Below are positions 30,240 through 47,693 of a stretch of 64,000 nucleotides of DNA, in pieces (the stretch's first letter is position 1; each line of letters opens with the position of its first letter). The stretch is from an uncultured Lachnospiraceae bacterium. GTDB lineage: Bacteria > Bacillota > Clostridia > Lachnospirales > Lachnospiraceae. The DNA is taken from assembly GCA_944380605.1 (NCBI GenBank), contig CALWIA010000027.1, positions 186,001 through 250,000 of the forward strand, written 5' to 3'. The notes under the pieces are model-generated. The model searched no databases and had not been told where the DNA came from. It saw only the letters and a program-made list of their open reading frames with translations. Both the position numbers and the translations under genes were made by a program.

Positions 30240-30267
30240 TTGCCATTCCTTATGAGAATGGTATAAT
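30240..30267 (+). promoter_or_regulatory. Extended -10 promoter at the edge of repeat copy 1
   Basis: TTGCCA (30240-30245), 16 bp spacer, TGGTATAAT (30259-30267) with the TG extension. The -10 is part of the repeat's terminal palindrome and points toward plsC. Confidence 0.55.
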
Positions 30268-30481
30268 ATCGTTAGATATTATACCAGCGTCGGTTCGGGC
30301 CGAGTGAAACGAGGCAAAGTCCGAACCGAACCGTGCGCAAGCCCGTGAGCGAACGAACGGAGTTCGTGAGCGCGCACTGCGTATGCGCGAAGGCGCAAGC
30401 CCGTGAGCAGGGAACGAAGTTCCCGAGCGCGCACTGCGCATGTGACGAAGGCGCAAGCGCGCACTGCGCCGTGCGGCAAAG
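30259..30481. repeat. Structured interspersed repeat, copy 1
   Basis: This non-coding element starts with a perfect 12-bp inverted repeat, TGGTATAATATC (30259-30270) and GATATTATACCA (30275-30286), which places TATAAT on both strands. A second inverted pair follows, CGGTTCGG (30291-30298) and CCGAACCG (30321-30328). Then come about 2.5 tandem units of 58 bp (30335-30392, 30393-30450, partial 30451-30481), each made of GCGCAAGCCCGTGAGC, a variable short hairpin (GAACGAACGGAGTTCGT or GGGAACGAAGTTCCC) and GAGCGCGCACTGCG. Long stretches are shared with copy 2 at 39968-40254. No protein is encoded. It fills the CmpB-plsC gap, and plsC starts 24 bp after it. Confidence 0.85.
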
Positions 30482-30504: not shown

Positions 30505-31254
30505 ATGTTCAAATTTATTCTGGTAGCCGGAAGCGTAATCCTGTTTCTGATTTTCAGCATTCCGATCCTGATCTGGGAGGCCTGGCTGGGCCGGCGCAAT
30601 CCTGCGGCGAAGGATCGTCAGAGCCTGAACATCGTCCGGTTTATGTTCCGTCTGATTCTGAAAATTTCCGGCGTACATATTACGGTAAAAGGTCTGGAAA
30701 ATATTCCGCGGGACCAGGGCGTCCTGTATGTAGGCAACCATCGGAGCTATTTTGATATCCTGGTGGGTTATACCACGGTGCCGTCTCTTCTGGGGTTTGT
30801 GGCCAAAAAGGAGATGCGCCGCTACCCGCTGCTGGTCAACTGGATGGAAAACGTCCACTGCCTGTTTTTGGACCGGCAGAATCTGAAAGAAGGACTGAAG
30901 ACCATTCTGGAAGGCATTGCCAAGGTAAAAGAAGGTATCTCCATATGGATTTTCCCGGAGGGCACCAGAAACCGCAACGACGACATTCTGGATCTGCTGC
31001 CCTTTAAAGAGGGAAGCCTAAAAATTGCGGAAAAGTCCGGCTGCCCGGTGGTGCCTGTGGCCATTACCGGCACGGCGGAAGTTTTTGAAAAGCACATTCC
31101 CCGCGTCCGTTCCTCTCACGTGACCATTGAGTTTGGAACGCCGTTTCTGATCAAAGAACTGGAGCCGGAACAGAAAAAATTCGCGGGAGCCTATACAAAA
31201 GAACGGATTCTGGAGATGCTCCGGAAAGAAAAAGAGCAGAGAGAGGGAAAGTAA
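30505..31254 (+). CDS. plsC: 1-acyl-sn-glycerol-3-phosphate acyltransferase
   Basis: 249 residues. It acylates lysophosphatidic acid to phosphatidic acid at the inner membrane. An N-terminal hydrophobic anchor (4-25) precedes the acyltransferase core: VGNHRSYFD with the HX4D catalytic pair (His79, Asp84), IWIFPEGTRNR (about 148-157, glycerophosphate binding), and a VPVAITGT motif. Length and order are normal. The ribosome site CGAGGTAA lies right after the structured repeat, whose outward promoter may drive it. The stop codon TAA abuts the GTG start of pheA, so the two are co-transcribed and probably coupled. The C-terminus is charged (KEKEQREGK). Confidence 0.93.
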   Translation: MFKFILVAGSVILFLIFSIPILIWEAWLGRRNPAAKDRQSLNIVRFMFRLILKISGVHITVKGLENIPRDQGVLYVGNHRSYFDILVGYTTVPSLLGFVAKKEMRRYPLLVNWMENVHCLFLDRQNLKEGLKTILEGIAKVKEGISIWIFPEGTRNRNDDILDLLPFKEGSLKIAEKSGCPVVPVAITGTAEVFEKHIPRVRSSHVTIEFGTPFLIKELEPEQKKFAGAYTKERILEMLRKEKEQREGK

Positions 31255-39847: not shown

Positions 39848-40048
39848 CCGGACTGCCAGCCGCAATCTTTTCGCGGCCTTTCATGCCGCGCCGCCAGAAA
39901 CTTCCCATCCCGACAGAAATTCCCTGCCCTTTCGTAAAGAAAAAGTAAGGCAAAGACAGATAAGGTATGGTATAATATCGAAAGATATTATACCAGCGCC
40001 GGTTCGGGCCGAGCGGAGCGAGGCAAACTCCGAACCGAACCGTGCGCA

Positions 40049-40185
40049 TCCCCCGGAGGGTTTATGCCTGCGCAGCAGGCATGGTATAATGTGCACGAAA
40101 GCATTAAGCAGTGCGAAAAAAGCCGGATCTGAAAACGGCGATGTGCTCGCACATGAGCCGTTAAAGAGCCGGATTTTTTCATAGG
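40049..40185 (+). ncRNA. Insert in repeat copy 2: promoter-like box, short hairpins and an intrinsic terminator (candidate small RNA)
   Basis: The segment contains a GCCTGC/GCAGGC hairpin, a TGGTATAAT extended -10 (40082-40090), and then a long stem (40116-40179) in which AAAAAA-CCGG pairs with CCGG-TTTTTT around AACGGC/GCCGTT and ATGTGC/GCACAT. Read on + it would give a transcript of about 80 nt ending in U6. The -35 is poor, so expression is unproven; the hairpin may simply insulate the downstream two-component operon. Confidence 0.45.
40116..40179. terminator. Long terminator-like hairpin upstream of the two-component operon
   Basis: Inner stems AACGGC (40134-40139)/GCCGTT (40157-40162) and ATGTGC/GCACAT, outer CCGG/CCGG, A6 at the left and T6 at 40174-40179. 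It could end transcription in both directions. Confidence 0.7.
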
Positions 40186-40278
40186 GCGCAAGCCCGTGAG
40201 CGAACGAACAGAGTTCGTGAGCGCGCACTGCGTATGCGACGAAGGCGCAAGCCCAACATCCAAAAGAGGAGGAATTGC

Positions 40279-40983
40279 ATGTCACAGATCAACATTCTGG
40301 TAGTGGATGATGAGAAGGAGATCGCGGATCTGGTGGAAATCTACCTGGTCAGCGACGGATATAAAGTATTTAAAGCCAACAATGCCCAGGAGGGACTGGA
40401 TATTCTGAATAAGGAAGACATCCATCTGGTGCTTCTGGACATTATGATGCCGGGCATGGACGGGCTGGAGATGTGCCGGAAGATCCGGGAGACCAACAAC
40501 ATCCCCATTATCATGCTCAGCGCCCGTTCCACGGACCTGGACAAGATCCTGGGACTGGGAACCGGCGCCGACGACTATGTGGTAAAGCCCTTCAATCCCC
40601 TGGAACTGACCGCTCGGGTTAAGTCCCAGCTGCGCCGTTATACCCAGCTGAACCCCAACAGCGGCATGAAAGAAAGCGAAAAGAACGAGATCTCCATCCG
40701 TGGCCTGGTGATCAACAAAGACAATCACAAGGTGACGGTATACGACGAAGAGATCAAGCTGACGCCCATTGAGTTCGATATCCTGTATCTGCTGGCCTCC
40801 AATCCCGGAAAGGTGTTCAGCACCGACGAGATTTTCGAGAAGGTCTGGAATGAAAAAGTATACGAAGCCAATAATACGGTTATGGTACATATCCGGCGCC
40901 TCAGAGGCAAGATGAAAGAAGATACGCGGCAGAACAAGATCATCACCACCGTATGGGGGGTAGGATACAAAATTGAAAAATGA
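40279..40983 (+). CDS. OmpR/PhoB-family response regulator (VanR-like)
   Basis: 234 residues. The receiver domain has INILVVDDEKEIADLV, phosphoacceptor Asp54 in VLLDIMMPG, a conserved Ser in IMLSARS, and Lys in DDYVVKPFNPLEL. The C-terminal winged helix (about 135-230) has LTPIEFDILYLLASNPGKVFS and TVMVHIRRLRGKM, typical of OmpR/PhoB proteins and close to the VanR group. ATG 40279 follows AGAGGAGG. It heads a run of eight tightly spaced genes and overlaps the kinase gene by 11 nt, so it very likely controls that operon. It is not evidence for vancomycin resistance: no vanH/A/X-like genes are present. Confidence 0.94.
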   Translation: MSQINILVVDDEKEIADLVEIYLVSDGYKVFKANNAQEGLDILNKEDIHLVLLDIMMPGMDGLEMCRKIRETNNIPIIMLSARSTDLDKILGLGTGADDYVVKPFNPLELTARVKSQLRRYTQLNPNSGMKESEKNEISIRGLVINKDNHKVTVYDEEIKLTPIEFDILYLLASNPGKVFSTDEIFEKVWNEKVYEANNTVMVHIRRLRGKMKEDTRQNKIITTVWGVGYKIEK

Positions 40984-46451: not shown

Positions 46452-47693
46452 ATGGGAATTATCAAAGCGGCCGCCCAGGCGGTGGGCGGAACTCTGGCGG
46501 ATCAGTGGCTGGAGGTTGTGGAAGCGGACGATATGGGGGATCAGACGGTGTTCACGGAAGGAGTGAAAATCCGCAGAGGCTCCAACACCAAGGGGACGGA
46601 TTCGGTGGTGTCCGACGGTTCGGTGATCCACGTCTGCCCCGGCCAGTTCATGATGCTGATGGACGGCGGAAAAGTGGTGGATTATACGGCGGAAGAGGGG
46701 TATTATACCGTGGATGACTCTTCTTCGCCGTCGCTGTTCAACGGCCAGTTCGGAGAGGTGTTAAAGGACGCTTTTGACCGGATCCGCTTCGGCGGAGAGA
46801 CGCCGAAAGCGCAGCGGGTTTTCTACATCAACCTGCAGGAGATCAAAGGCATCCGGTTCGGCACCCGGACGCCGGTGAACTATTTTGACGCGTTTTACAA
46901 CGCGGAGCTGTTTCTGCGTGCCCACGGCACCTACTCCATCAAGATCACGGATCCGCTGAAATTTTACCGGGAAGTGATTCCCAAAAACAGCAGCCACGTG
47001 GAAATCGGCGAAATCAACGAACAGTATCTCAACGAATTTCTGGAAGCGTTCCAGGCGGCGGTCAACCAGATGTCCGCCGACGGCATCCGGATTTCCTTCG
47101 CGGCTTCCAAGAGCCGGGAACTGAGCCAGTATATGGCGGATATTCTGGATGAGGGATGGAAACAGACCCGGGGCATGGAAATCCAGGCGGTGGGCCTGGC
47201 CAGCCTCTCGTACGACGAGGAGTCCCAGAAGCTGATCCATCTGCGCAATCAGGGCGCCATGCTGGCGGATCCCGCCATTCGGGAAGGCTATGTGCAGGGT
47301 TCTGTGGCCCGCGGCCTGGAAGCGGCCGGCTCCAACGCCCAGGGTTCCATGGCCGGCTTTATGGGCATGGGAATGGGCATGGGCGCCGCGGGGAACTTTA
47401 TGGGCGCCGCCTCCGCCGCCAATCTGAACCAGATGCAGATGAACCAGGCGCAGAGAAATCAGGCCCAGGCAAATCCGGCACAGACGCAGCCCTCCGGCGG
47501 GCAGGCGGCAGGAACGCAGCCGTCGGGAACGGTGCCGGCAGGCAGCTGGGTATGCGCCTGCGGCCAGGTGAACGCCGGCAAGTTCTGCAGCGAATGCGGG
47601 CGTCCGGCGCCTGCGGCGGGCAGCTGGGTGTGCGCCTGCGGCCAGGTGAACACCGGCAAATTCTGTACGGAATGCGGAAAACCGAAGCCGTAA
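46452..47693 (+). CDS. SPFH/virion-core-like protein (YdjI-like) with two C-terminal zinc ribbons
   Basis: 413 residues. The first ~290 residues follow the YdjI-type SPFH pattern: MGIIKAAAQAVGGTLADQWLEVVEADDMG, VIHVCPGQFMMLMDGGKVVDY, YFINLQEIKGI-like strands (here FYINLQEIKGIRFGT) and AHGTYSIKITDPLKFY. A Gly/Met/Gln-rich linker (about 300-350) leads to two near-identical zinc ribbons, each SWVCACGQVN.GKFC.ECG, with four Cys apiece. In B. subtilis the homologous YdjI works with YdjG/YdjH and PspA at the membrane; the next two genes here look like those partners. ATG 46452 is one base after the permease stop. No PspA gene is present. Confidence 0.87.
   Translation: MGIIKAAAQAVGGTLADQWLEVVEADDMGDQTVFTEGVKIRRGSNTKGTDSVVSDGSVIHVCPGQFMMLMDGGKVVDYTAEEGYYTVDDSSSPSLFNGQFGEVLKDAFDRIRFGGETPKAQRVFYINLQEIKGIRFGTRTPVNYFDAFYNAELFLRAHGTYSIKITDPLKFYREVIPKNSSHVEIGEINEQYLNEFLEAFQAAVNQMSADGIRISFAASKSRELSQYMADILDEGWKQTRGMEIQAVGLASLSYDEESQKLIHLRNQGAMLADPAIREGYVQGSVARGLEAAGSNAQGSMAGFMGMGMGMGAAGNFMGAASAANLNQMQMNQAQRNQAQANPAQTQPSGGQAAGTQPSGTVPAGSWVCACGQVNAGKFCSECGRPAPAAGSWVCACGQVNTGKFCTECGKPKP

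Follow-up and report, generated by a model that had tools for sequence, protein, structure and literature searches.

REP/BIME sequences are short, palindromic, non-autonomous repeats that are moved by RAYT (Y1) transposases, form tandem clusters and are recognised through their hairpins. To our knowledge, they are not tied to promoter −10 boxes. The Correia/NEMIS elements of Neisseria are IS630-type MITEs of ~100–150 bp with promoter sequence at their ends, terminal inverted repeats and a TA duplication. Group IIC introns, and other safe-site elements, insert in one direction at a transcription signal, the terminator, and the host gene is spared. BOX elements of Streptococcus pneumoniae are described as small intergenic mosaics of structured modules, thought to be parasitic, that can be co-transcribed with genes (Croucher 2011, PMC3049150). 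Clostridiales-1 appears in a published list as a probable RNA without a cis-regulatory role (Weinberg 2010, PMC2864571).

Here we describe small folded DNA repeats of gut Lachnospiraceae that form a family without a previous name. The family is like each of the first four systems in part. It shares short palindromic non-autonomous units, tandem clusters and, probably, a role for hairpin recognition with REP/BIME sequences. However, the elements are bound to −10 boxes, and no Y1_Tnp domain was found in the source genome (94% complete) or in the element-rich genomes G009, G012, G013 and G021. Size, and promoter sequence carried at the ends, recall Correia/NEMIS. Conversely, the TATAAT-type elements here lack terminal inverted repeats and have the −10 itself as target, which places them outside that class. 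One-way insertion at a transcription signal, with the gene spared, is as in group IIC introns, but the element is ~112 nt, has no internal reverse transcriptase and targets the −10 rather than the terminator. The mosaic of small intergenic structured modules is shared with BOX; extended −10 targeting and fixed orientation are not mentioned in the abstract on BOX, and the comparison is one of description rather than of sequence (PMC3049150). A literature search of partial coverage returned nothing relevant on this family or on −10 targeting.

The element upstream of plsC and its family

The window is the whole 64,000-nucleotide stretch that was analysed, positions 186001–250000 of contig C27. 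It holds two copies of the element, with the following features.

30240–30245, + strand: host −35 hexamer TTGCCA, 16 nt ahead of the P1 −10; matches the −35 position of plsC promoters in element-free relatives
30259–30286, + strand: P1, TGGTATAATATC-GTTA-GATATTATACCA, a 12-bp palindrome in which each strand contains TGGTATAAT; the −10, TATAAT, occupies 30262–30267
30287–30338, + strand: P2, GCGTCGGTTCGG...CCGAACCGAACCGTGCGC, with stem CGGTTCGG/CCGAACCG and inner hairpin GCC-GA-GT-GAA-AC-GA-GGC
30335–30391, + strand: B-module tail unit 1, 57 bp, hairpin ACGAAC-GGA-GTTCGT flanked by GA dinucleotides
30392–30448, + strand: B-module tail unit 2, hairpin GGGAAC-GAA-GTTCCC
30449–30481, + strand: B-module unit 3, partial
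30505–31254, + strand: plsC-like acyltransferase gene downstream of copy 1 (PF01553)
39968–40081, + strand: copy 2, complete A unit (P1-P2-P3-P4), covariance model score 112.6 bits
40082–40090, + strand: TGGTATAAT, the right-hand extended −10 that closes the copy 2 A unit at its 3' end
40091–40254, + strand: B module behind copy 2; 40109–40230 matches Rfam Clostridiales-1 below threshold (26.2 bits; gathering 48)
40279–40983, + strand: response regulator with winged-helix output domain downstream of copy 2 (PF00072, PF00486)

The initial annotation described copy 1 as a non-coding, structured, interspersed repeat that starts with a perfect 12-bp palindrome, giving an extended −10 on both strands, and continues with a CGGTTCGG hairpin. 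The palindrome and the hairpin can be read directly from 30259–30286 onward. The source genome contains 44 BLAST matches (best non-self 1.8e-49), the RNA of copy 1 folds with z = −5.9 (0 of 200 shuffles equally stable), and the lack of coding capacity is supported. The long match noted 9.7 kb away lies at a distance of 9709 bp and spans 92 nt at 88% identity. This is copy 2, in which the A unit is still complete and a separate B module comes after it; as DNA, copy 2 folds with z = −6.2 against shuffles. The tandem units of copy 1 do have constant flanks and compensating hairpins, although a repeat search sets their spacing at 57 bp and not 58. The hairpins of tail units 1 and 2 are altered on both arms with pairing retained, and three versions of the stem recur among source-genome copies. 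Compared with copy 2, copy 1 looks like a chimera of an A head (P1 and P2) and a B tail, joined at TGCGCA.

Between 30150 and 30560, the sole promoter-like site with 11 of 12 matches is TTGCCA-16-TATAAT with its TG, at 30240–30267 on the + strand. In relatives, the plsC promoter at the same place is TTGTTT-N17-TATAAT or similar; in the source genome it is TTGCCA-N16-TATAAT, with the −10 drawn from P1. It is therefore well supported that P1 supplies the −10 half of the plsC promoter and that the −35 half is the host's. The proposal that the element provides this promoter holds for the −10 only. The palindrome had also been read as resembling a bidirectional promoter. Activity in both directions is at most putative; the forward half is the −10 of an invaded host promoter, and where a lineage has a different P1 hairpin, a −10 is missing from this position.

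The two copies first noted are not the only ones. The source genome (2.53 Mb, 34 contigs) has 10 A heads and ~20 further B tails. By BLAST, A units occur in 16 of 26 genomes of the genus, with up to 23 matches per genome, and often stand in tandem with a period of 111–114 bp. The covariance model finds relatives in 61 of 397 genomes, and 55 of 334 genera, of the family Lachnospiraceae; a class-wide sample of 291 adds a single genome from outside the family. Most of the genomes compared are MAGs. Named hosts, found by exact match, are Hungatella effluvii, Ca. Cottocaccamicrobium, Ca. Caccovicinus and Lachnospiraceae MAGs labelled Lapin. No match was found in the phages and plasmids searched.

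Fold and covariation of the A unit

The full A unit, of ~112 nt, consists of four parts, P1 to P4. P1 is followed by P2, in which a GCGC-closed stem carries the inner hairpin GTCC-GA-AC-GAA-GT-GA-GGAC. P3 is CCCCGGAGGG and P4 is CATGTCC-GGA-GGACATG. In the inner P2 hairpin the tandem GA mismatch and a mostly GNA loop are constant, and the stems vary. RNAalifold missed this hairpin in the raw alignment, probably because of gap placement. Hence, a model with the structure named was used instead.

Two-sided changes were seen in 37 of 39 pairs, among 50 matches from many genera. Covarying cells numbered 234; shuffles gave 50, and sliding the structure gave no more than 35. The size of this effect is inflated by fitting the alignment to the covariance model. 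Entire stems are swapped and still paired, for example CGGTTCGG/CCGAACCG, CGATTCGC/GCGAATCG and CGATTTGC/GCAAATCG. The initial annotation had named two observations that would count against it, a genome with only these two copies and folds lacking covariation; many copies and covarying pairs were found. G.U pairs outnumber A.C by 42 to 18. This excess is only suggestive of a functional + strand, since 13 of the G.U cells stem from one pair.

Pairing is thus conserved, in line with the selection on structure first proposed. Selection on the RNA is possible and stands unproven, because fold-back or hairpin-templated copying can also yield covariation. One locus in G009 (L393, before the g101 gene) carries a P1-only remnant with 15-bp arms that take in host flank, TTGTGGTATAATCTC-TGAC-GAGATTATACCACAA. 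Its second arm suggests that host flank was copied by fold-back synthesis.

Empty and filled promoters

Promoters with and without the element were compared between sister species, not sister strains. Upstream of g126 (MEQPVFDLDHLPRTYFKMALPV...), the site is empty in G013, reading TTTCATGGTAAAATAATTG / TTTCATGGTAAAATAATTGTC, and the gene start is 98% identical. The filled site, in G021, is TTTCATGGTATAATCTC-unit-GGACATGGTAAAATAATTG, with a right end of ...GGACATGGTAAAATAATTGTC. The g107 site is empty in four species (G012, G009, G011 and G015), with GACAAGATATGGTATACT or TATAAT, and filled in G017 as GACAAGATATGGTATAATCTC-unit-GGACATGGTATACTGAATACGG, where TATACT is retained at the right. For holB, the empty form is AAATTATGATATACTGTCC and the filled form AAATTATGTTATAAT...GGACATGGTATACTGTCC. 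An empty lepA site, TTGCAA-N17-TATACT, agrees with the pattern at g126, g107 and holB; the mutL intergenic region, also read as a candidate empty site, was too divergent. Taken together, these pairs indicate that insertion splits an extended −10 between its ATGn and its TATA, where a −35 stands at the right distance. The host −10 hexamer is retained at the far end of the insertion. Its many copies, its lack of coding capacity and the clean pairs of empty and filled sites among close relatives mark the unit as a non-autonomous mobile repeat.

The element ends, TATAATCTC on the left and GGACATGG on the right, are not inverted. Since ATGnTATA is present at both, a target-site duplication of fixed length is inseparable from the ends themselves.

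Further modules are found at the same promoters. Overall, the sequences of B, C and D are unrelated, yet each of these modules starts at TGGTATAAT as A does, and several have another at their end. At g132 the promoter is empty in G009; in G012 it carries A, and in G011 it carries D. Upstream of pyrH, A is found in G003 and B in the source genome. At the holB promoter, A is present in G009, G011 and G013; the source genome carries C plus B there. The C module (L011, L003 and L356; source genome) reads TGGTATAATAAGAGC.CTTGGCGAGGTTTTTTCGAGCC...TTAGCAGACATGGTATAAT and has a GA-GNA hairpin as in A and B. The D module (L114, L391, L121), TGGTATAATAACGAGGAAAGCACCGATGGCGC...GTCAGTCGAGATGGTATAAT, is a second unrelated structured repeat at these promoters. 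The B module shares a closing stem, a GUGCUUGCAC-type hairpin and an occurrence in gut Clostridiales with Clostridiales-1 (RF01699; PMC2864571). Scores at three loci are only 26.2, 27.2 and 26.7 bits against a threshold of 48, so that any kinship is distant. The head unit matched no Rfam family; none reached its gathering threshold.

Probable insertion at extended −10 elements

Orientations were counted on contigs retrieved by exact match, whose genes were called by a simple home-made program. Where genes were called on both sides, the downstream gene was co-oriented in 58 of 58 elements of the genus; some of these loci are orthologous, which lowers the number of independent cases. The upstream gene was forward in 32 and divergent in 26. 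In most cases, 20–180 nt separate the end of the element from the start codon. Outside the genus, TATAAT-type elements precede a co-oriented gene in 17 of 19 cases; among the few readable elements with another P1 hairpin, most do not. Elements with other P1 and P4 hairpins were away from promoters in the few cases read; hence, targeting of promoters is not a feature of the whole superfamily. In one such group (L332–L347, from G092, G355, G360, G128, G329 and G316, and L259), the P2/P3 core GCGCCG...CGTGCGCATCCnnCGGAG is shared and P1 and P4 are quite different, with no −10. Several ends in this group adjoin a hairpin and T-run resembling intrinsic terminators. Target choice may be linked to the end hairpins.

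Promoter statistics used 67 upstream flanks, left after removal of similar ones, and took at least 4 of 6 letters of TTGACA as a −35. Such hexamers peak 17 nt before the P1 TATAAT (19 of 67, where other spacings average ~2.5; p ~3e-12), and 28 flanks have one at a spacing of 16–18, compared with 8.6 in shuffled flanks. TG is preceded by A or G in 66 of 67, with T one base further 5' in 43. These bases match TRTGn, the Gram-positive extended −10. At the right end, 37 of 46 hexamers fit TAnnnT (TATAAT 13, TACAAT 9, TATACT 9, TAAAAT 3). At five loci in several genomes (L059, L081, L117, L122, L124), a further repeat with a CTAGCCGCCGCGCTAGCGGCT hairpin lies directly 5' of P1.

We think it probable that the element is a non-autonomous, hairpin-rich mobile repeat, site-specific to the extended −10 (TRTGnTATAmT) of existing promoters and inserted in one orientation. 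Insertion would pair the host −35 with the P1 TATAAT and, on the right, leave the −10 hexamer of the host in place after ...GGACATGG. The gene would keep usable −10 boxes at both element ends, and a precise one-way insertion would spare it. Units would then pile up in tandem, and the unrelated modules B, C and D would occupy these sites too, which would produce mosaics like copy 1. The inserted unit would be transcribed as a 5' leader. The hairpins and head-to-tail arrays point to a folded single-strand intermediate; stable GNA triloops and tandem GA suggest that a trans-acting recombinase may act on it.

Y1, Y2 and IS110-type transposases were rejected as partners since none was found in the source genome. 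Ten Y1 loci were read and none is flanked by an element. Y2_Tnp is absent from the source genome and most element-rich genomes, with a fragment in G009. Transposase_20 (IS110-type) is absent from the source genome, G009, G012, G013, G017 and G021.

The insertion model must be set against other accounts of the same data. A cis-regulatory RNA, leader or riboswitch-like, selected in the 5' UTR of downstream genes, would fit an element that is always sense to its gene, covaries strongly, favours G.U over A.C and probably has transcription starting inside P1. We nevertheless judge this very improbable. The downstream genes are mutually unrelated (plsC, a response regulator, a glgC-like nucleotidyltransferase, a low-molecular-weight phosphatase, a cytidylate kinase-like protein), on which ground a regulon was rejected as well, and orthologous genes are found without the element or with a different module. 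There is only a slim chance that these are free-standing small RNA genes, as proposed for Clostridiales-1, that carry their own promoter TGGTATAAT and spread as genes. The P1 −10 could start a structured RNA, and the B module resembles RF01699 below threshold at three loci. However, P1 lies at the correct distance from the host −35 of the downstream gene, the right-end −10 is retained and no intrinsic terminator was found behind copy 1.

High copy number, intergenic position, lack of coding capacity and mosaic modules are also what an ordinary parasitic repeat of REP, BOX or MITE type would show. Such a repeat would insert anywhere, and promoter proximity would be the residue of selection against harmful insertions. 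This we find scarcely credible, as selection alone is unlikely to give the same −10 position and one orientation in 58 of 58 cases. A broader proposal is that A, B, C and D, though unrelated, are all folded single-strand cassettes put into extended −10s by one shared machinery. Promoters would then be attachment sites, as in integrons but with no known integrase, perhaps entered through a strand opened by RNA polymerase or guided by a target-complementary AUUAUACC arm. We consider this unlikely, if less so than the alternatives above.

If insertion at the extended −10 is correct, many promoters of gut Lachnospiraceae have been rewired by small elements landing on the −10 box itself. This would be an unusual choice of target, would explain duplicated −10 boxes and structured leaders before housekeeping genes, and would point to a recombinase. 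The empty and filled pairs make the model directly testable.

Elsewhere in the window, at 47536–47677, two 64-nt copies that are 89% alike lie 78 nt apart and look like duplicated cysteine-rich coding units.
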